Assembly (NCBI RefSeq): GCF_001570605.1
Contig: NZ_BBXG01000010.1
Span: 12,592-76,591 of the forward strand
Source: Herbidospora cretacea
Lineage (GTDB): Bacteria; Actinomycetota; Actinomycetes; Streptosporangiales; Streptosporangiaceae
DNA: 64,000 bases
Direction of reading: 5' to 3'
Shown here: positions 2,937 through 24,473 of the stretch, piece after piece
Layout: every line of letters begins with the position of its first letter
How positions within the stretch are numbered: position 1 is the stretch's first letter
The notes under the pieces: model-generated
The model's input: the letters and a program-made list of their open reading frames with translations, nothing else
Told to the model about the DNA's origin: nothing
The model's database searches: none
Made by a program: the position numbers and the translations under genes

Positions 2937-4037
2937 TCAGCGGACGTCGACCAGCTTGTAGGCCGAGAGCGACGAGTTCGTCGCGCTGGTGCCGGTGGCC
3001 TGGAGACGCCAGTAGCCGTCGTACTTGGGCTTGACGGTCTTGCTGTACTTGCCCGTCGAGTTGGCGCCCACGTAGCCGACGAACTTCCAGGTCTTGGTGC
3101 CCTTCTTCTTGAAGTAGAGCTTGAGGATCTTCTTCGACCAGGCGCCCCACTTGCTGGTGCCGCGGTAGACCTTGCCGTAGATCTTGACCGTCTTGCCCTT
3201 CTTCACCTTCGCGGGCGAGACGGCGATCGTGATCTTCGACTTGGCCTTGGCCTTGGAGCCGGGGCCGTTGACCGAGAAGCCCTTGACGAAGCTGTAGCTC
3301 TTCGAGCCGCGGGTCACGTTGACCTTGAGCTGCCAGCTGCCGGTCGGGGCCTGGTCGTCGAACGAGGCCGAGCCGTGGTAGCTGTCGTCGGCCTCGAGGC
3401 CGCTGTTCAGCGAGTAGTAGTCACCCGAGGAGACGTGCTCGAAGCGGACGCCGGTGAGCTTCTCGTCGCCGTACTTCTCCAGCTTGAAGTTGGCGAAGAC
3501 GTCGACGTCCGCGCCCTTCTTCAGCACGACGGGGTCGGGGTCGACGCTCGCGGAGTTCACCCGGGTCGCGGTGGCGACGGTGATCTCGTTCCAGGCCGTA
3601 GGCCAGGTCGGCGCTGCGGTGACGCCGTTCTCGGTCCAGGCGACCTGGTACTTCCACTTGCCCGGCTTGTCGCTCGACGAGACCGGGATGGAAGCGGCGA
3701 CGTCGAGGGAGGGAACAGGGGTGGGGGCCGGGGACGCGGGGATCGTGGGGATGTCGGCCGCGGTGCCCGCGTGGGCGGCGGACTCGGCCTCATCGGTCTT
3801 CAGGAAGCGGACGTGCACCTTGCCCGGCTTGTCGAAGCCGGCCGAGTAAGGCGAGTTCACCTTCACCTTGAACGGGATCTTGTCGCTGCCGCTCGGCGGG
3901 ATGAAGAGGTCGGTGAAACCCGTGCCGCTGGCTTCGACGGAACCGGCGAAGGCAGGCGCGGCGGCGACGACGGCACCGGTGGCGAAGAGCGCCGCCCCCG
4001 TTGCGGCCGCGACCATGAGCCGCAGGCTCTTACGCAT
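2937..4037 (-). CDS. Secreted protein of unknown function, tandem paralogue 1
   Basis: A 366-residue protein starting MRKSLRLMVAAATGAALF with a Sec signal peptide that probably ends after APAFA, around residue 31. The mature part has no catalytic motif I can recognise. It appears to be built from beta-sandwich-like stretches, and the last ~90 residues (KVKKGKTVKIYGKVYRG to YKLVDVR at the very end) are basic and rich in Lys, Tyr and Trp. It is clearly paralogous over its length to the next gene at 4181, most strongly in this C-terminal module. The start is chosen because AAAGGGG precedes this ATG at good spacing; an in-frame ATG further upstream lacks such a site. Function unknown; a surface or wall role is only a guess. 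Confidence 0.85.
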   Translation of the reverse strand: MRKSLRLMVAAATGAALFATGAVVAAAPAFAGSVEASGTGFTDLFIPPSGSDKIPFKVKVNSPYSAGFDKPGKVHVRFLKTDEAESAAHAGTAADIPTIPASPAPTPVPSLDVAASIPVSSSDKPGKWKYQVAWTENGVTAAPTWPTAWNEITVATATRVNSASVDPDPVVLKKGADVDVFANFKLEKYGDEKLTGVRFEHVSSGDYYSLNSGLEADDSYHGSASFDDQAPTGSWQLKVNVTRGSKSYSFVKGFSVNGPGSKAKAKSKITIAVSPAKVKKGKTVKIYGKVYRGTSKWGAWSKKILKLYFKKKGTKTWKFVGYVGANSTGKYSKTVKPKYDGYWRLQATGTSATNSSLSAYKLVDVR

Positions 4038-4098
4038 GTAGGGCCCCTTTACATGAGTCATATGGTGGGAGAAATGTGACTTGTGAGAATAACGTGAT

Positions 4099-4128
4099 AT
4101 GGGCCCACGTGCATGCACATGGGCCCAT
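4099..4128. promoter_or_regulatory. Near-perfect 30-nt palindrome
   Basis: Arms ATGGGCCCA (4099-4107) and TGGGCCCAT (4120-4128) flank the inner palindrome GTGCATGCAC (4109-4118). Only one symmetric position mismatches. It lies between the two paralogous secreted genes, about 60 bases upstream of the first and about 50 downstream of the second. It could be an operator for the 2937-4037 gene or an extra terminator; the absence of a T-run on either side favours an operator. Confidence 0.55.
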
Positions 4129-4140
4129 TCGTCACCCTGC

Positions 4141-4174
4141 ACGGCTTGCGCCAGGGGTTGATGGCGCGAGCCGT
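4141..4174 (-). terminator. Hairpin directly after the stop of the secreted-protein gene at 4181
   Basis: ACGGCTTGCGCCA pairs with TGGCGCGAGCCGT, a 13-bp stem with one wobble pair and an 8-nt loop. There is no U-tract, which is common for actinomycete terminators. Confidence 0.6.
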
Positions 4175-4180
4175 ACAGGA

Positions 4181-5317
4181 TCAGCGGACGTCGACGAGCT
4201 TGTACGGCGAGTACGAGGACTTCGTCGCGGAGGTGGCGGTGGCCGCCATCCGGTAGTAGCCGTCGTACTTGGGCTTGATCGTCTTGCTGTACTTCCCGGA
4301 GTTGTTGGCACCGACGTAGCCGACGAACTTCCAGCTCTTGGTGCCCTTCTTCTTGAAGTAGAGCTTGAGGACCTTCTTCTTCCAGGCGCCCCACGACTTA
4401 ACGCCGCGGTAGACCTTGCCGTAGACCTTGATCGACTTGCCCTTCTTCACCTTGGCAGGCGCGATGGACATCGTGATCTTCGACTTGGCCTTGGCCGCGG
4501 GTGCGGTCGTCTTGCTGACGGTGAAGCCCTTGGTGAAGGCGTAGGTCTTGCCGCCACGCGTGATCGTGAACTTGATCTGCCAGGCGCCGGCCGGAGCGTC
4601 GGTGCCCATCGTCACGAAGTTGTAGTAGCTCTTGTCGTCGCCCTCCAGGGAGGTGCCGAGCGAGTAGTACTCGCCGCTCGACGGGTGCAGGGCGCGCACC
4701 TGCTTGAGCGTCTCGCCGCCGAACTTCTCGATCGTCGCGCTGAAGCCGACGTCGGTCGCCGCCTTGAGGACGACGGGGTTCGGGTCGATGCGGACGTTCG
4801 ACACCCGGGTGGCCGCGGTGACCGCGAAGGTCTTGACGGCCTTCCAGCCGGTGGTCGGAGCGGTGGACGACGGGGTGGGAGTGGCCGTCGCGGCCAGGGT
4901 CTCCAGCGCGACCTCGAGCTGCCAGCGGTCACCGGGCTTGTCGTTGTTGAGCGCGTTGACCGTGCCGGTCACCTTGGAGGTGGCGGGGGGAGCGGTGGTC
5001 AGCTTCGGCAGCGCGTTGGCGGTGCCGAGGCGGTAGTTGACCGTGACGCCCGCGCCGGGGTTGTTGTCCGGCGTGACGCGGACCCAGACCTTGTACCGGG
5101 GCAGCCACTCGTTGCCGACCTTCTGGTACGCGTTCTCGAGGTCGAAGGAGAACGGGATCGTGTCCTGGCTGACCGGCGGGATGAACGTGTCTGCCAGTGC
5201 GACGTTGGTCACGTCGCCGTCGGCGGCGAGCGCGGGGGTTGCGGTAATGGCCGTACCGCTGGCGAAGAGTGCCACCCCGCAGGCGCCTGCAATCAGCAGT
5301 CGCAGGCCTTTCCTCAT
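4181..5317 (-). CDS. Secreted protein of unknown function, tandem paralogue 2
   Basis: A 378-residue protein starting MRKGLRLLIAGACGVALFAS with a Sec signal peptide, likely cleaved near ATPALA around residue 31. Its layout matches the 2937-4037 gene: similar leader, FIPP near the mature N-terminus (LADTFIPPVSQDTIPF here, LFIPPSGSDKIPF there), a Ser/Thr/Pro-rich stretch, a middle section with DPNPVVLK, and the C-terminal ~90 residues with WGAWKKKVLKLYFKKKGTK and YKLVDVR at the end. The pair probably arose by tandem duplication. Each gene has its own upstream gap and hairpin, so they may be separately transcribed. No enzymatic residues were recognised. Confidence 0.85.
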   Translation of the reverse strand: MRKGLRLLIAGACGVALFASGTAITATPALAADGDVTNVALADTFIPPVSQDTIPFSFDLENAYQKVGNEWLPRYKVWVRVTPDNNPGAGVTVNYRLGTANALPKLTTAPPATSKVTGTVNALNNDKPGDRWQLEVALETLAATATPTPSSTAPTTGWKAVKTFAVTAATRVSNVRIDPNPVVLKAATDVGFSATIEKFGGETLKQVRALHPSSGEYYSLGTSLEGDDKSYYNFVTMGTDAPAGAWQIKFTITRGGKTYAFTKGFTVSKTTAPAAKAKSKITMSIAPAKVKKGKSIKVYGKVYRGVKSWGAWKKKVLKLYFKKKGTKSWKFVGYVGANNSGKYSKTIKPKYDGYYRMAATATSATKSSYSPYKLVDVR

Positions 5318-5600
5318 CGAATCCCCAATCTGAGGTAATTTTGAGGGAAAAGCTCGGGTTTGAGCAGGGAGAGCCTAGTGGGGCCCCTGTGACCAGTCCA
5401 CATGCGCGGTGACCTTCTCACGGACTTCCCAGGCATCGTTCAGAGTCGGCCCCGGGAATGCGCGATGGCCTGGGAGGGTTCTCCGATCTGGCACACTGGT
5501 AGCCGAACCGTTGCGGTTCCGGTTCCCGCCCCCTGGTTCTCAAGCGGAGATCCAGGCTGACAGAGCGACCCGGCGACCGCGCCCCGGAGAGGAAAAGGGT

Positions 5601-5819
5601 ATGAAGGCCGACATCCACCCCACGTACACCGTCACCAATGTGACGTGTTCGTGCGGTAACACGTTCACCACGCGCAGCACCGCCAAGAACGGCACGATCC
5701 ACGCCGACGTCTGCTCCGCGTGCCACCCGTTCTACACGGGCAAGCAGAAGATCCTCGACACGGGCGGCCGCGTGGCGCGCTTCGAGGCCCGGTTCGGCAA
5801 GAAGCCCGCGGGCAAGTAG
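5601..5819 (+). CDS. rpmE: 50S ribosomal protein L31
   Basis: 72 residues, the normal length for the zinc-binding form of L31. The zinc-ligand cysteines are visible in TCSCGN and [13 protein letters not shown]31 sits at the subunit interface in the central protuberance. The start follows GGAGAGGAAAAGG. It lies directly upstream of prfA, a common actinobacterial order. The 280 bases upstream hold no other gene that I can support. Confidence 0.97.
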
Positions 5820-5931
5820 CTCTTTCCCAGACGCCGGCTCGGAACCGTCCCCCTCACTCAGGTGGGCGCGCCCGGGTCGGCGTTCGTGGTGAAAGGGCCT
5901 ACTCGATTCGTCATTGCAGGAGGGACGCGCG

Positions 5932-6981
5932 GTGAACCTCGACGAGCTCATCAGCGAATACGCCGATCTCGAGCAGAAGCTCGCCGATCCGGCCGTGCAC
6001 GCCGACCAGGCGAAGGCCAGGCAGTTCGGGAAGCGTTACGCCCAGCTCACGCCGATCGTCGGCACCTACCGGGAACTCGGCCAGGTGCGCGACGACATCA
6101 AGGCCGCGCGCGAACTCGCCGGTGAGGACCCGTCGTTCGCCGACGAGGCGGCCGAGCTGGAGGCCCGCGTCCCCGCGCTGGAGGAACGGCTGCGTCACCT
6201 GCTGGTGCCCCGTGACCCCAACGACGACAAAGACATCATCATGGAGATCAAGGCGGGCGAGGGCGGCCAGGAGTCGATGCTCTTCGCCGGCGACCTCCTG
6301 CGCATGTACCTGCGCTTCTCCGAGCGGGCCGGCTACAAGGCCGAGATCATCGACGCGCAGTACTCCGACCTGGGCGGATACAAGGACGTCACGGTCGCCA
6401 TCAAGGGGCGCGACGGCGCCTGGGGGCGGCTGAAGTTCGAGGGCGGCGTCCACCGGGTGCAGCGGGTGCCCGCGACCGAGTCGCAGGGGCGCATCCACAC
6501 CTCGGCCGCCGGGGTGCTCGTCTACCCCGAGGCCGAGGAGGTCGACGTCCAGATCGACCCCAACGACCTGCGGATCGACGTCTACCGCTCCAGCGGTCCC
6601 GGTGGCCAGAGCGTCAACACCACCGACTCGGCGGTGCGCATCACCCACGTCCCGACGGGCGTCGTGGTGTCGTGCCAGAACGAGAAGAGCCAGCTCCAGA
6701 ACAAGGAGTCGGCGATGCGCATCCTCCGCGCGCGGCTGCAGGCCATCGCCGAGGAAGAGGCCAACGCCGCCGCGATGGCCGAGCGCAAGTCGCAGGTGAG
6801 AACAGTGGACCGGTCCGAGCGGGTGCGCACCTACAACTATCCCGAGAACCGGATCTCCGACCACCGCGTCGGGTTCAAGGCCTACAACCTCGACCAGGTC
6901 CTCGACGGCGACCTCGACGCGGTCATCCAGGCCCTGCTCGACGCCGAACTGGCAGAGAAGCTCGCCGCCGCGTCCACCTGA
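5932..6981 (+). CDS. prfA: Peptide chain release factor 1
   Basis: A 349-residue class I release factor reading UAA and UAG. The codon-recognition tripeptide PAT is at residues 180-182 ([10 protein letters not shown]), which separates RF1 from RF2, and the catalytic GGQ is at 224-226 ([10 protein letters not shown]). The start is the GTG at 5932, behind GCAGGAGGGA; a TTG at 5914 overlaps that site and is unlikely. PrmC, which methylates the GGQ glutamine, is encoded immediately downstream. Confidence 0.97.
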
Positions 6982-6985
6982 GCCG

Positions 6986-7840
6986 ATGACCTTCCTCCTG
7001 GACGAGATAGCGCTGGCCACCGCCCGGCTCGCCGAGGCAGGTGTGCCGTCGCCGCGCGCCGACGCCGAGGAGATCGCGGCGTTCGTCCACGGCGTGACGC
7101 GCGGCACCCTCCACACGGTCAAGGACTCCGAGTTCGACGCCCTCTTCTGGGAGGGCGTCTCCAGGAGGGAGTCGCGCGAGCCGCTGCAGCACATCACCGG
7201 CCGCGCCTTCTTCCGCTACCTGTCGCTCGAGGTCGGCCCCGGGGTGTTCATCCCCCGGCCGGAGACCGAGGTCGTCGTCGGCTGGGCCATCGACCGCCTC
7301 AACGAGATGGACGTCGCCTCCCCGATCGTGGTCGACCTCGGCACCGGCTCAGGCGCGATCGCGCTGTCGATCGCCCAGGAGGTCGCGCTCGCGCAGGTCC
7401 ACGCCGTGGAGATCGACCCGGCGGCCTACCGCTGGGCCAAGCGCAACATCCTCGAACACGGCCAGGGCCGAACCTCCCTCCACCCGGAGGACCTGTCCGA
7501 CTGCCTGCCCGAGCTCGAAGGCCAGGTCGACCTGGTCATCAGCAACCCCCCTTACATTCCGCCGGGGGCGGTGCCGCGCGACCCCGAGGTGCGCGACTAC
7601 GATCCCCGCCGGGCCCTGTTCGGTTCGGGTGACGACGGCCTCGGGGAGGTCCGGGCGGTCGAGCGCACGGCCGCGCGCCTGCTGCGGCCCGGCGGCCTGG
7701 TCGCGGTGGAACACGCCGATGAGCAGGGCAACGCGGTCTACTGGTTGTTCTCGGAGGACAACGGCTGGCGCGACGCCCGCCTCCGTCAGGATCTGACCGG
7801 CCGCGACCGTTTCGTGACGGCCAAGTTCGGCCTGGAGTGA
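6986..7840 (+). CDS. prmC: Release factor glutamine methyltransferase
   Basis: 284 residues, the usual length. It transfers a methyl group from SAM to the Gln of the GGQ loop of release factors. Visible are the SAM-binding DLGTGSGAIA (residues 117-126) and the NPPY active-site motif (187-190). It begins 4 bases after the prfA stop, so it is co-transcribed with its substrate's gene. Confidence 0.95.
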   Translation: MTFLLDEIALATARLAEAGVPSPRADAEEIAAFVHGVTRGTLHTVKDSEFDALFWEGVSRRESREPLQHITGRAFFRYLSLEVGPGVFIPRPETEVVVGWAIDRLNEMDVASPIVVDLGTGSGAIALSIAQEVALAQVHAVEIDPAAYRWAKRNILEHGQGRTSLHPEDLSDCLPELEGQVDLVISNPPYIPPGAVPRDPEVRDYDPRRALFGSGDDGLGEVRAVERTAARLLRPGGLVAVEHADEQGNAVYWLFSEDNGWRDARLRQDLTGRDRFVTAKFGLE

Positions 7841-7853
7841 CAAGGGAGTTCAC

Positions 7854-8501
7854 ATGACCCGCCGATACCTCTGTTCCAACCCCGGCGAGCGCGAGTCGGG
7901 CCTCATCGACGCCGCGTCGGTCATCAGAGCCGGCGACCTGATCGTCCTCCCGACCGACACGGTCTACGGCATCGGCGCCGACGCCTTCACGCCCTCGGCC
8001 GTCTCGGCCCTGCTGACGGCGAAGGGCCGCGGCTCCGACATGCCCGTCCCGGTCCTCGTCGGGACGGTCCGGGCCGCCGGGGCGCTCACCGAGTCGCTCG
8101 GCCCGCACGGCCAGGACCTCATCGACGCCTTCTGGCCCGGCCCGCTGACTCTCATCTTCAAGGCCAACCGGTCGCTCCAGTGGGACCTCGGCGAGACCAA
8201 GGGCACCGTCGCCATCCGCATGCCGCTCCACCAGGTCGCCCTCGACCTGCTCAAGGAGACCGGCCCGATGGCCGTCTCCAGCGCCAACCGCACGGGCAAC
8301 CCGCCCGCCACCACGGCGGCCGAGGCCGAGGAGCAGCTCGGCCAGTCGGTGGCCGTCTATCTCGACGCCGGACCCTGCGCCGACAACACCCCGTCGACGA
8401 TCCTCGACCTGACCGCCTCGGTGCCCCGCGTGCTGCGCAAGGGCGGCATTCCGGTCGAGAAACTCCGCGGCGTCGTGGGCTATCTGGCGACCGAGGACTA
8501 G
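7854..8501 (+). CDS. tsaC: L-threonylcarbamoyladenylate synthase (TsaC/Sua5/YrdC family)
   Basis: 215 residues. It makes threonylcarbamoyl-AMP from threonine, bicarbonate and ATP for t6A37 tRNA modification. Typical family sequence is seen in VLPTDTVYGIGADAF, the KGR segment, the FWPGPLTLI block and SSANRTGNPPATT. The size fits a single YrdC domain without the longer Sua5 extension. It follows prmC by 13 bases with an AAGGGAG site. In many actinobacteria this gene is followed directly by wecA; here two extra genes intervene. Confidence 0.93.
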   Translation: MTRRYLCSNPGERESGLIDAASVIRAGDLIVLPTDTVYGIGADAFTPSAVSALLTAKGRGSDMPVPVLVGTVRAAGALTESLGPHGQDLIDAFWPGPLTLIFKANRSLQWDLGETKGTVAIRMPLHQVALDLLKETGPMAVSSANRTGNPPATTAAEAEEQLGQSVAVYLDAGPCADNTPSTILDLTASVPRVLRKGGIPVEKLRGVVGYLATED

Positions 8502-21094: not shown

Positions 21095-21475
21095 GTGGAG
21101 CTACTACTCATAGGGTTGGCTCTGCTCGCTGTCCTGTTCTGTATTCGTGTCGTCGCCCTGGCCTCGCGCCGGGGGACGGTCATCTGTCACGTACGGACCG
21201 GGACCGGGAAATGGCAGAGCGGGGTAGCCCGCTACGCCGGAGGAGAGCTCCACTGGGTCCCTCTCGCCGGAATCCGTCTGAGGCCGCGCCACGCAATCGC
21301 GAGGCGCGGCCTTGTCGTTTCCCGGCGTCGCCCCCTGGAAGCGGGGGAGGGCCCCCAGGGCCACTGGATGGTCGAGGCCGGCGCGGTCAGCCTGGCCATG
21401 AGCGAAGACGCCCTGACGGGCTTCCTGGCCTGGCTGGAGTCAGCCCCGCCCAGCGCCCACCTCGACGCCGTCTGA
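21095..21475 (+). CDS. DUF2550 membrane-anchored protein (Rv1312-like)
   Basis: 126 residues: one N-terminal membrane helix (LLLIGLALLAVLFCIRVVAL), then a small basic domain with WVPLAGIRLRPRHAI and a conserved-looking end (ALTGFLAWLESAPP). Genes of this family close many actinobacterial atp operons. Function unknown. Its last 36 bases overlap, on the opposite strand, the end of the fused sigma factor gene; the protein itself looks full length. GTG start behind AAGGAGG. Confidence 0.85.
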   Translation: MELLLIGLALLAVLFCIRVVALASRRGTVICHVRTGTGKWQSGVARYAGGELHWVPLAGIRLRPRHAIARRGLVVSRRRPLEAGEGPQGHWMVEAGAVSLAMSEDALTGFLAWLESAPPSAHLDAV

Positions 21476-23362
21476 GCGCAGGGCGCGCAGGGTGCGTCCG
21501 GTGGCCTGCTTGAACAGGTGCTCGGCGCGCTCGTAGGACAGCCGTCGCCGCCCGGTGTCGGGGCACAGGTCCTTCTCCGCCGGTCGGCGGGCGGGCGCGG
21601 GACGCCGGTCGGAGAGGAACAGCGGCCCCCGGGTGCGGCCGGCGACCAGTTCGGGCAGCAGCCGGGCCGTCCGGGACCGCCAGGAGACGCCGGTGCGCGA
21701 GCGGCGGTCGTCCAGGTCGAGGTCGTCGACGTCGAGCGCCAGCACCCGGCTCACCGGCGCGGCCGATTCGTGCAGCAGGCACCACAGCACCCGTTCCCGC
21801 AGCGCCACCCCGGGCCGGTCCCACGGCGGCTCTCCCTGGAGCGCCGGTCTCCGGACGGGCGGCGGCTGCTCGCGGCGTCGCAGGTCACCGGTGAGGCCGG
21901 GCCCCTGCGCCCACGCGGAGAACGAGCCGATCGCGGCCAGATGGCGGTTCCAGGTCCGGGCCGCCGTCGCGCCCCACGCTGTCGTCGCCGCCCGGCCCAC
22001 CTCGGCGGCGGTCACCGTCGCGAGCGGCGTCCGCGCGCCGAGGGCCACGCACAGGCGGTGCAGCGTCTGGCCGTAGGACCGCGCGGTCGACGGCGTGAGA
22101 CCGGCCAGGAACTCCCCGACCGCCTCGCCCAGCAGGACGCCCGCGTGGTCGTCGGGCGGGATCCGGTCGGCGCGCCGTTCGAGGAAGGCCCGTTCGGCCG
22201 CGTTGTCAGTGAGCTGAGCGGCCCGCAGGAACTCCCCGCGCGCCTCACCGTGCCTGCCGAGACGGAGCAGCAGGTCGGCGCGGACGCCCGGGAGCAGGTG
22301 GTAGTTCCGCAGCGCGGGGTCGGCGGTCAGGCCGTCGGCCAGGTCGAGCCCGGCCTGCGGCCCGTACGCCATGCCGACCGCCACGGCCTGGTTGAGCCGG
22401 ACGACCGGGGTCGGGGTCAGCCGCACGAGGATCTCGTAGAGCGAGGCGATCTGCCCCCAGTCGGTCTCCTCGGCGGTGGGCGCCTGCGCGTGGCAGACGG
22501 CGATGGCGGCCTGCACGAGGTAGGGGCCGGGCGGGCCGCCGATCTCGCGGGCGCGCAGCATCGCGGTGAAGCCCCGGCGGATCCGGAGCCGGTCCCAGCG
22601 GCCCCTGTTCTGCTCGTGCAGCGGGATGGGCTCGCCCGAAGGGCCGGTGCGGGCGTCGGCGCGGGAGGTCTGGATCTCCATCAGGGCCAGCAGCCCCAGC
22701 ACCTCCGGCTCCGGCGCGAGCTCGGCCAGCGTGCCGCCCAGGCGGAGCGCCTCCAGAGCCAGGTGCGGGCGCATCAGGTCGTCGCCGGACGCCGCCGAGT
22801 ATCCCTCGTTGAAGATCAGGTAGATGACCTCCAGCACCGACCCGAGGCGGTCGGCCGTCTCGGGTGGGCCGGGCAGCTCGAAGTCCACCCGGTGGTCGGC
22901 GAGGATGCGTCTGGCGTCGGCGACGCGCCGGGCGACGACCTGCTCGCCGGTGAGGAAGGCGCGGGCGATCTCCGCCGTGCTGAGCCCGCCCACCAGCTTC
23001 AGGGTGAGGGCGACCCGCGCCGGTGGCGGCAGCACCGGGTGACACGACAGGAACATCAGCCGCAGCGTGTCGTCCTGCGTGTCCTCCTGCGCGGGCTCCT
23101 CGCCGTCGCGCAGGTCGTGCGCCATCTGCTCGTGGGTGCGGTCGTGCCGCCGCTCCCGCCGGACGTGGTCGACGGCGCGGCGCCTGGCCACCGCCATCAG
23201 CCAGGCGCCGGGATTGTCGGGCACGCCCTCGCCGGGCCACTGTTCCATGGCGGCGACGAGGGCGTCCTGGGCGAACTCCTCGGCCAGGCCGACGTCGCGG
23301 ACGACCCGCATCAGCCCGGCGATGATCTTCGCCGACTCCAGTCTCCAGACGGCCTCGATCAC
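21440..23362 (-). CDS. ECF sigma factor fused to a truncated tyrosine-recombinase domain
   Basis: 640 residues. Residues 1 to about 400 are a full ECF sigma factor of the long YCII-associated type: region 2 (FAQDALVAAMEQWP, NPGAWLMAVARRRAVDHVRR), region 4 (LTLKLVGGLSTAEIARAFL) and the ~200-residue helical extension (LEVIYLIFNEGYSA, LNQAVAVGMAYGP). From about 410 on, a tyrosine-recombinase-like sequence follows: a core-binding part (STARSYGQTLHRLCVALG) and a catalytic start (HESAAPVSRVLALDVDDL, GPLFLSDRRPAPARRP, SYERAEHLFKQATGRTLRALR). The catalytic Arg of the usual A-R-A-S-E context appears replaced, the expected His of HxxR reads Arg, and the protein ends there, so box II and the nucleophilic Tyr are absent. 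The tail is translated from the strand opposite the DUF2550 gene end. The sigma part is probably functional and the recombinase part is probably dead. Confidence 0.8.
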   Translation of the reverse strand: MIEAVWRLESAKIIAGLMRVVRDVGLAEEFAQDALVAAMEQWPGEGVPDNPGAWLMAVARRRAVDHVRRERRHDRTHEQMAHDLRDGEEPAQEDTQDDTLRLMFLSCHPVLPPPARVALTLKLVGGLSTAEIARAFLTGEQVVARRVADARRILADHRVDFELPGPPETADRLGSVLEVIYLIFNEGYSAASGDDLMRPHLALEALRLGGTLAELAPEPEVLGLLALMEIQTSRADARTGPSGEPIPLHEQNRGRWDRLRIRRGFTAMLRAREIGGPPGPYLVQAAIAVCHAQAPTAEETDWGQIASLYEILVRLTPTPVVRLNQAVAVGMAYGPQAGLDLADGLTADPALRNYHLLPGVRADLLLRLGRHGEARGEFLRAAQLTDNAAERAFLERRADRIPPDDHAGVLLGEAVGEFLAGLTPSTARSYGQTLHRLCVALGARTPLATVTAAEVGRAATTAWGATAARTWNRHLAAIGSFSAWAQGPGLTGDLRRREQPPPVRRPALQGEPPWDRPGVALRERVLWCLLHESAAPVSRVLALDVDDLDLDDRRSRTGVSWRSRTARLLPELVAGRTRGPLFLSDRRPAPARRPAEKDLCPDTGRRRLSYERAEHLFKQATGRTLRALRSDGVEVGAGRG

Positions 23363-23682
23363 AGGACCCTGCGGATCTCACTCACCCCGTCGCCGACGAC
23401 GCGGCGGAACCGGCGGGTCAGCTCCAGCACCTCCTCCTCGGAGGTCACCTCCACCAGGGCGAACCCGACGGCGGCCTCCTTGGCCTCGGTGAACGGCCCG
23501 TCGGTGACCGTGGTCTCGCCGCCGGCCGAGGTCATCCGGAGGCCGCCCGGCTCCAGCCCGCCGGTGGCCAGCAGGATCCCCTTGGCGCTCATCTCCTCGA
23601 TGAAGGCGCCCATCTCGGCGAAGAGCCTCTCGTCGGGGGCGGGGGTGTTCTCGTCGGCCAGGCTCAGCAGCAGGTAGCGCAT
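23359..23682 (-). CDS. YCII-related (DGPF-domain) protein
   Basis: 107 residues, starting MRYLLLSLADENTPAPDERL, with the DGPF motif (VTDGPFTEAKEAAVGFALVEV). Such proteins are encoded next to long ECF sigma factors and are thought to sense or modulate them. The stop overlaps the start of the sigma gene by 4 bases (ATGA), so they are co-translated. The ATG at 23682 has an AGGGAGAGA site; upstream in-frame codons have none. Confidence 0.9.
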   Translation of the reverse strand: MRYLLLSLADENTPAPDERLFAEMGAFIEEMSAKGILLATGGLEPGGLRMTSAGGETTVTDGPFTEAKEAAVGFALVEVTSEEEVLELTRRFRRVVGDGVSEIRRVL

Positions 23683-23816
23683 CTCGGGTCTCTCCCTTGT
23701 CCGTTCGTTGTCTCTGCCCTCACGTCGATCGGCGGATGTGACAGGGAACCGGGTCATTCCCTGTCATATCGCATCTTCGACGTCTGGGGCGAAGGCATCG
23801 AACCGAAAGGCCCACC

Positions 23817-24473
23817 ATGACCGTCACCACTCGCACCCTGCTCCTCTGCGCCGCCGTCGCCGGGCCGCTCTGGTCGGCGGTGTCGCTGGCCCAGGCCGCG
23901 ACCCGCGAGGGCTTCGACCTGACCCGCCACCCGCTCAGCCTGCTCAGCACCGGATCGCCCGGCTGGGTGCAGATCGCGAACTTCGTGGTCGCCGGGCTCC
24001 TGATGCTCGCCGGAGCGGCCGGATTCCGCCGTGTGACGGACGGCGCGTGGCTGCCCCGGCTGGTCGGCGTCTCCGGCCTGGGCATGATCGCCGCCGGGGT
24101 CCTGGTCATGGAACCGGGCGACGGCTTCCCGGCGGGAACCCCGGCCGGGCCGGGCACCCTCGGGGTGAGCGGCATCGGCCACATGGCCGCCGGGTCGATC
24201 ACCTTCGCCGCCCTCATCGCCGCCTGCTACGTGCTCGGACGACGGTTCTCCCGTGCGGGGGACCGCGGTTCCGCCCTCGCCTCCCGTGTCGCCGGGACCG
24301 CCCTGCTCGCCGGGAACCTCTGGGCGATGAGCGGCGGGAAGGCGGGTTCGCTGACCCTCGCCGTCGGCGCGATCAGCGCGATGCTCTGGATCTCCTGGGT
24401 GGCCTGGGCCGCCGCCCGTGGGCTCAGCGGGTCCCGCCCGGCTTCCACAGGATCTCCGCGCCGTCGGAGCTGA
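23817..24473 (+). CDS. DUF998 integral membrane protein
   Basis: 218 residues with about six hydrophobic segments; the N-terminal part GFDLTRHPLSLLSTGSPGWVQ is the characteristic DUF998 loop. Function unknown. It diverges from the YCII/sigma operon with 134 bases between starts, so it could be a target or sensor of that sigma factor (inference from position). Its last 50 bases overlap the end of the convergent adenosyltransferase gene. Confidence 0.85.
   Translation: MTVTTRTLLLCAAVAGPLWSAVSLAQAATREGFDLTRHPLSLLSTGSPGWVQIANFVVAGLLMLAGAAGFRRVTDGAWLPRLVGVSGLGMIAAGVLVMEPGDGFPAGTPAGPGTLGVSGIGHMAAGSITFAALIAACYVLGRRFSRAGDRGSALASRVAGTALLAGNLWAMSGGKAGSLTLAVGAISAMLWISWVAWAAARGLSGSRPASTGSPRRRS

Follow-up and report, generated by a model that had tools for sequence, protein, structure and literature searches.

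Sigma factors are regarded as reading promoters through their regions 2 and 4. In the ECF42 family (e.g., Sven_0747), these two regions are followed by a DUF6596/TPR-type extension and the gene has a YCII neighbor; the extensions are described as TPR-type, and both this part and YCII are reviewed as candidates for the switch (PMC8999054, cited here in part). ECF41 and other extended sigma factors likewise carry a regulatory domain C-terminal to the sigma part, and their extensions bind ligands or proteins (SnoaL-like, TPR, WD40-like; same parts of PMC8999054). The words "integrase" and "recombinase" do not occur in the main text of this review, and text searches of the literature, with most subscription papers outside their scope, listed no sigma factor with a recombinase domain. 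Among recombinases, the SPbeta master repressor MrpR (YopR) has a tyrosine-recombinase fold, lacks recombinase function and acts as a sequence-specific regulator; its authors consider that the recruitment of recombinase folds as regulators may be more widespread (PMC10516654, also cited in part). Here, we describe a gene of Herbidospora cretacea in which an ECF42-type sigma factor continues in frame into a tyrosine-recombinase domain that is truncated and catalytically dead. It lies in a window of 64,000 nucleotides (contig NZ_BBXG01000010.1 of assembly GCF_001570605.1, positions 12,592 to 76,591 of the forward strand), and the coordinates of its parts are given in Table 1.

Compared with other ECF42 factors, the protein has an additional domain of about 230 residues and its cassette has a half-site operator; one clade of the fusion (clade A, see below) has lost the TGTCGA −35 element and, with few exceptions, the conserved arginine of sigma region 4. 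Whereas ECF41-like extensions bind ligands or proteins, we propose that the extension is a DNA-recognition module in this case. MrpR is a standalone repressor which keeps Tyr304, Lys169 and a full catalytic domain (parts of PMC10516654), while the domain found here is truncated and fused to a sigma factor; binding of DNA without recombination, as in MrpR, is predicted here from the distribution of the half-site and from a covariation. The nearest relatives of the domain that we found are standalone actinobacterial tyrosine recombinases (L103, L142-L152 and plasmid relatives), which, unlike the fusion, are not joined to a sigma factor.

Our reading, to which we assign a probability of roughly 0.8, is that the gene encodes an autoregulatory ECF42-type sigma factor with an exapted tyrosine recombinase as predicted recognition module for the half-site. 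The domain would have retained the site-specific DNA binding of a recombinase and lost its chemistry (Arg-I, Lys hairpin, box III, Tyr and the C-terminal end). One half-site would be bound per sigma factor, setting the holoenzyme on two divergent promoters, so that the protein would drive its own operon and the gene for DUF998, while sigma region 2 would read TCGACG 7–8 nt downstream of the half-site. Recombinase protomers such as those of Cre and Int hold each other through C-terminal contacts, and loss of the C-terminal end would remove these contacts as well as catalysis. A signal might enter through the DUF6596/TPR-type part and YCII. Half-site binding by the domain, control of both promoters by the fused sigma factor and the hand-over of −35 recognition are what we infer.

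The open reading frame contains no internal stop. Residues 1 to approximately 400 and the YCII gene upstream show the ECF42 make-up in Pfam, with sigma regions 2 and 4 but without region 3, a DUF6596 match (E 1.8e-32) and a weak TPR_2 match under its cut-off (E 0.12). Since the TGTCGA −35 is absent in the window, the protein is assigned to ECF42 solely on the grounds of descent and domain content, its promoter being changed. When the final 240 residues were searched alone, Phage_int_SAM_1 was matched at 23.7 bits (cut-off 22.3); NCBIfam and PHROGs gave only weak recombinase matches for the C-terminal part, and a sequence-profile search of solved structures gave a single match at chance level and no recombinase. 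AlphaFold predicted the domain alone with a mean pLDDT of 91.3 and a pTM of 0.70 (87.1 and 0.66 for the full protein). In a Foldseek search with the domain, the best 50 of 93 matches were tyrosine recombinases except for MrpR, a weak match at rank 50, and SroF; scores were modest, with 6 of the 93 at E ≤0.001 and TM-scores by query length of 0.32–0.67. The model thus points to a tyrosine-recombinase fold with a truncated catalytic domain, comprising a SAM-like core-binding part and the initial portion of the catalytic domain up to box II. The original prediction, made from the sequence alone, had described an in-frame fusion of a YCII-linked ECF sigma factor and a recombinase with AAPVSR at the Arg-I site, Arg in place of the His of HxxR and no Tyr; all of this is found in the window protein.

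Relatives were collected by a scan of one genome per species (84,980 species), which gave 166 relatives, and the best 80 were kept as named loci. Sigma factor and recombinase domain are whole and in one frame at 76 of these 80; at the others, the sigma part is partial (L083, L108), the frame is broken (L056) or the recombinase stands alone (L103). Without L103, the named loci belong to 30 named genera, six families and four orders. A near-full-length match was present in 12 of 60 genomes, the own genome counted (7/7 of the genus and five other genera with one each), which is far beyond chance. Among 394 genomes drawn from the class, 15 had a strong match, and 14 of these lie in a frame of more than 600 residues. 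In a sigma tree of 74 rows, including 38 of the 62 rows of clade A, the fused rows form one side of a branch (support 99) and are subdivided into clade A, which holds the window (98), and the basal group B (99). In the recombinase tree, clade A is one branch (100/99), the standalones are another (98/98) and group B lies between them as a grade. The two fused groups were initially sorted by promoter layout and then grouped together on the trees.

The cassette consists of a DUF998 (PF06197) gene divergent from YCII and the sigma gene; of the 80 named loci, 76 have YCII and 60 have DUF998. The region between DUF998 and YCII contains two inverted copies of a half-site of 13 bp, TTCCCTGTCACAT; in the window, these copies (the second reading TTCCCTGTCATAT) are placed inside an imperfect palindrome of 32 nt. 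With up to two mismatches, the half-site occurs in 78/80 named loci. At up to one mismatch it was found in none of 18 ECF42 loci without visible fusion, one of which holds a copy with two mismatches. The exact half-site also adjoins 8 of 19 standalone relatives (21 non-fused rows minus the frame-broken fusions L056 and L153), at several of them in the form of two inverted copies 7 bp apart, and versions with one or two mismatches were seen at L149 and L159-L161. Around the eight standalone loci with the exact half-site, no match to sigma factor, YCII or DUF998 was found within 7.7–8.7 kb. What the loci with the half-site have in common is the recombinase rather than the sigma factor, and this is the core of our argument.

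The second line of evidence is a covariation of base 3 of the half-site with residue 21 of the domain, which lies in the core-binding part. In an initial column scan (6 versus 63 rows), residue 21 alone showed no overlap between the groups. Fused proteins with Ala21 have A as base 3 (TTA) in 10/10 cases, and the 90 fused proteins that combine Ser21 with a site show TTC in 81 cases, TTA in four, both in four and C/G in one. There are three independent pairs (loci with mixed or no half-sites were excluded from the sign test), all of which agree in direction.

Canonical ECF42 promoters have a TGTCGA-type −35 and a CGA/TC-type −10, and TGTCGA-N-TCGAC was found upstream in 14 of the 18 ECF42 loci without visible fusion. 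The window promoter has retained the −10-like TCGACG. For the fused loci, 62 were compared (the 79 named loci remaining without L103, minus 17 without inverted pair), and YCGACG stands 7–8 nt past the half-site in 55 of them toward the sigma gene and in 49 toward DUF998. In clade A, TGTCGA is lost and the half-site is in its place, starting about 20 nt upstream of TTCGAC. In the five loci of group B with a canonical promoter, the half-site starts 41, 41, 41, 43 and 52 nt upstream of TGTCGA; the half-sites of this group would thus take the position of an activator site, upstream of a normal ECF42-type promoter where one is found. The arginine of IVRAK in the recognition helix of sigma region 4 is present in 19/19 unfused and 17/17 group B rows but in 2/62 clade A rows (excluding L056, L083, L108 and 24 fused rows without classed promoter); within clade A, Arg or Lys is found at this position in L011, L061, L065 and L087 only. 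Much of the −35 recognition in this clade has probably shifted to the recombinase domain. That −35 reading was passed from region 4 to the captured, catalytically extinct recombinase, with specificity made up of a lox-like half-site and the −10, seems to us to have a slightly better than even chance.

Alternatively, the half-site could be read by sigma region 4 as an altered −35 element, or by another protein, with the recombinase domain serving dimerization or regulation. The place of the half-site in clade A, at the −35 position, would fit this, as would the change of sigma region 4 in the very same clade, which is expected upon adaptation to a new −35. However, the identical 13-mer is found next to standalone recombinases at loci that show no sigma gene, it starts 41–52 nt upstream of the TGTCGA −35 in the five group B loci where the latter was found, and the fused proteins show covariation between base 3 of the 13-mer and residue 21 of their recombinase domain. 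We therefore consider this alternative unlikely and retain the domain as the candidate reader of the half-site.

Catalysis appears to be lost throughout the fusion. The active set of tyrosine recombinases (Arg-I, Lys, His-Arg-II, His-Trp-III, Tyr) reads Pro, gap, Arg, Arg, absent and absent in the window protein. Among 89 distinct fused domains (120 fused open reading frames, collapsed), Arg-I is kept in four, Lys in none (the hairpin is deleted), the box-II His in nine and Tyr in one (L100), while the box-II Arg position has Arg in 46 and Lys in 31. The 19 standalones have Arg-I in 15, Lys in 17, the box-II His in 17, the box-II Arg in 18 and Tyr in all, and all six residues are intact in 14. 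Four other standalones (L145, L147, L148 and L152) lack Arg-I, and some of them also Lys or the His of box II, with Tyr still in place; judged by these residues, they appear to be a second, unfused line losing catalysis. L100 (2654-4858; a Sphaerisporangium metagenome-assembled genome, group B) has a sigma factor with a near-complete recombinase, in which box II, His and Tyr are kept and the Lys hairpin is missing; it is possibly a living intermediate or else a re-acquisition. We lean narrowly toward a series of steps surviving in living species, from L100, with the half-site upstream of an intact promoter and a nearly complete recombinase, via the rest of group B, where the half-site is likewise upstream and the recombinase truncated, to clade A, where the half-site takes the place of the −35 and the arginine of sigma region 4 is lost.

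A domain without chemistry could also be a functionless deletion product or a slowly decaying remnant, and besides the lost residues, the 3′ tails of the fused genes, variable past box II, and the frame-broken members L056 and L153 (probably also L083 and L108) point this way. On the other hand, the fusion is whole and in one frame at nearly all named loci and occurs in six families, there are invariant scaffold residues, and the predicted fold is confident. A codon-level comparison of 21 pairs from Herbidospora gave a median pN/pS of 0.41 for the recombinase domain and 0.32 for the sigma part, which points to purifying selection on the domain within the genus; dS differs between the parts (sigma 0.25, domain 0.53), and third-position GC of the domain is about that of the sigma part in the three loci compared. 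A remnant is consequently the least probable of the explanations considered here, and the recombinase, which had been called decaying, is better described as kept across four orders.

The fusions end at box II or up to about 40 residues beyond (Tyr being reached only in L100), and in G006, the protein has its own stop at box II inside the matched range. An assembly artifact or a missed stop near 22140 was rejected as a general account, as the junction is open in 12/12 aligned sequences, the own sequence included. A private decay or deletion at the junction with the DUF2550 gene, as had been supposed for the end of the window gene, was rejected as well: this junction fails since relatives share the box-II end and atp/DUF2550 genes are near the fusion in only one of the 80 named loci. 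Hence, of the two origins offered in the original prediction, deletion or decay is not supported, whereas co-option of the DNA-binding part of the recombinase stands, now with a likely DNA target in the promoter region of the cassette.

Across 341 genomes of the family, the exact half-site was matched in 101 genomes, compared with two matches in total for a reversed-pattern control. Where a fused or close relative is listed for the genome, 76 of 88 have it, versus 25 of 253 others (Fisher p 1e-40, kinship uncorrected; tallies counted by hand from the site listing and the per-genome table). Only eight candidates per genome were scored in the search for relatives, and at least one fusion escaped it (that of G224, which shows up in L202); the 253 other genomes thus include some with fusions. 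Among the matches listed, 94 of 150 sites have a listed relative downstream at a distance of up to 4 kb. We opened 20 places of our own choice from 56 distant sites and found recombinase fragments at four, another fusion at one, DUF998 or YCII-DUF998 at four, an unfused ECF42 at one (L199) and a split ECF42 at one (L206). The four DUF998 or YCII-DUF998 places are possible extra targets. Neither YCII nor DUF998 nor a site adjoins the fused gene of Streptosporangium saharense (L043), and both exact half-sites of this genome are found at YCII-DUF998 on a different contig; judged from this arrangement, the site accompanies the target rather than the sigma gene. A pattern of two exact half-sites was present in only one of 37 genomes, and is too strict because one half often carries a mismatch.

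At L206 (G199:C50:15600-27200), some 5 kb of sequence apparently interrupt an ECF42 sigma gene (approx. 3460-8434); near one junction, at 3533-3565, there is a core-type pair whose spacer is 7 bp, and a lone half-site is found at 8108. The insert may be an integrative element of the standalone-recombinase type within the sigma gene.

The inverted pair could, in principle, be a live recombination site at which an intact relative, acting in trans, moves or inverts the cassette or the promoter, with the fused domain only regulating this event. Its layout is like that of a recombinase core site, plasmids carry relatives, and the split gene at L206 with its core-type pair would also agree with such a role. 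The spacers, in contrast, differ: 8 bp in 46 and 9 bp in nine of the 62 fused loci, with the remainder spread across 4–55 bp, versus 7 bp in 17 and 6 bp in one of 18 core-type pairs outside fused cassettes, half of which have no recognized recombinase (L195, L197, L198, L210) or fragments only (L194, L196, L201, L206, L213). A fixed spacer befits strand exchange, while a looser spacer befits binding only. In addition, the window genome has no further relative of the recombinase domain at E 0.001. A live site is very unlikely on these grounds, and binding by the fused domain remains our preferred explanation.

Further copies of the half-site were seen beside the pairs. At L142, L143, L149, L151, L160, L161, L194, L201 and L213, beside standalone recombinases or fragments, a third copy, in some cases with one or two mismatches, has the orientation of one copy of the pair, from which it is separated by 77–78 or 89 bp, and the two distance classes are about one helical turn apart. 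In group B, L012, L066, L100, L214-L222, L225, L229, L231 and L232 have tandem half-sites with a spacing of 17–18 or 27 bp, again differing by about one helical turn. On a Streptomyces plasmid (NZ_CP108089.1:100738-101388), the feature that covers a relative of the domain has no annotation other than sigma-70 family sigma factor, so the architecture may travel by plasmid, too.

Several observations weigh against the proposed role of the domain. The covariation rests on four base changes and two changes of residue 21 on the tree, and three independent pairs are too few for significance in the sign test. L229, L230, L231 and L234 combine base A with Ser21, three of them (L229, L231 and L234) with Lys at the nearby residue 24, and the rule fails in distant standalones, with TTA and Ser in L159 and TTC and Ala in L160 and L161. 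The half-site is absent at the standalone loci L147, L148 and L154-L158. Of the 18 ECF42 loci counted as unfused, L014 and L023 have a contig end right past the sigma part, so a fusion is possible there. L199 (G241:C33), an unfused ECF42 with 41% identity to the window sigma factor, has an inverted pair with an 8-bp spacer about 1.1 kb upstream; its genome also has a fused sigma factor, of which L199 may be a target in a possible sigma cascade. Nine of the 20 distant places have no recognizable partner gene. Chance matches are a further concern, as 11 of 100 shuffles of the window reach two matches at two mismatches. In the window genome (8.28 Mb), the half-site occurs twice at up to one mismatch, both being the cassette pair, and the reversed-pattern control likewise gives two; since the counts are equal, only place and orientation tell in this genome. 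Concerning the promoters, the canonical form was not found by pattern in 12 of the 17 group B loci, and 9 of the 24 fused rows without classed promoter have the sigma region 4 arginine. Finally, since A is one clade, the loss of the −35 and the loss of the arginine may count as one event.

Table 1. Features of the fused sigma gene and its cassette (positions in the 64,000-nt window).
Feature	Position	Strand	Details	Basis
Fused gene, ECF42-type sigma factor with truncated, catalytically dead tyrosine-recombinase domain	21440..23362	-	640 aa, GTG start	Open reading frame
Sigma-70 region 2	23147..23317	-	Residues 16-72	Pfam Sigma70_r2
Sigma-70 region 4	22907..23059	-	Residues 102-152	Pfam Sigma70_r4_2
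Asp149 codon	22916-22918	-	In sigma-70 region 4; Arg in 19/19 unfused relatives	Helix comparison
DUF6596	22550..22849	-	ECF42-type C-terminal extension, residues 172-271	Pfam
Recombinase-like domain	21443..22138	-	Residues 409-640	Pfam, AlphaFold, Foldseek, catalytic residues
Ser429 codon	22076..22078	-	Domain residue 21, covarying with half-site base 3	
YCII gene	23359..23682	-	First gene of the operon; stop overlaps start of sigma gene	Pfam, sequence
DUF998 (PF06197) gene	23817..24473	+	Divergent; predicted second target	Pfam
Half-site TTCCCTGTCACAT	23736..23748	-	Exact; YCII-sigma side, at −35 position	
Half-site TTCCCTGTCATAT	23757..23769	+	One mismatch; DUF998 side	
Spacer of the half-site pair	23749-23756		8 bp	
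TCGACG, −10-like for YCII-sigma	23723..23728	-	7 nt past half-site	Sequence, conservation
TCGACG, −10-like for DUF998	23777..23782	+	7 nt past half-site	Sequence, conservation

If our reading is true, these soil actinobacteria would possess a sigma factor with an on-board, long and highly specific DNA-recognition module derived from a recombinase, resulting in a near-private promoter, and the fused and standalone relatives would form a series of intermediates showing a DNA-cutting enzyme turning into a regulator. It would also suggest that a search next to living relatives can reveal the binding sites of extinct recombinases. For synthetic biology, the fusion may offer orthogonal promoters.

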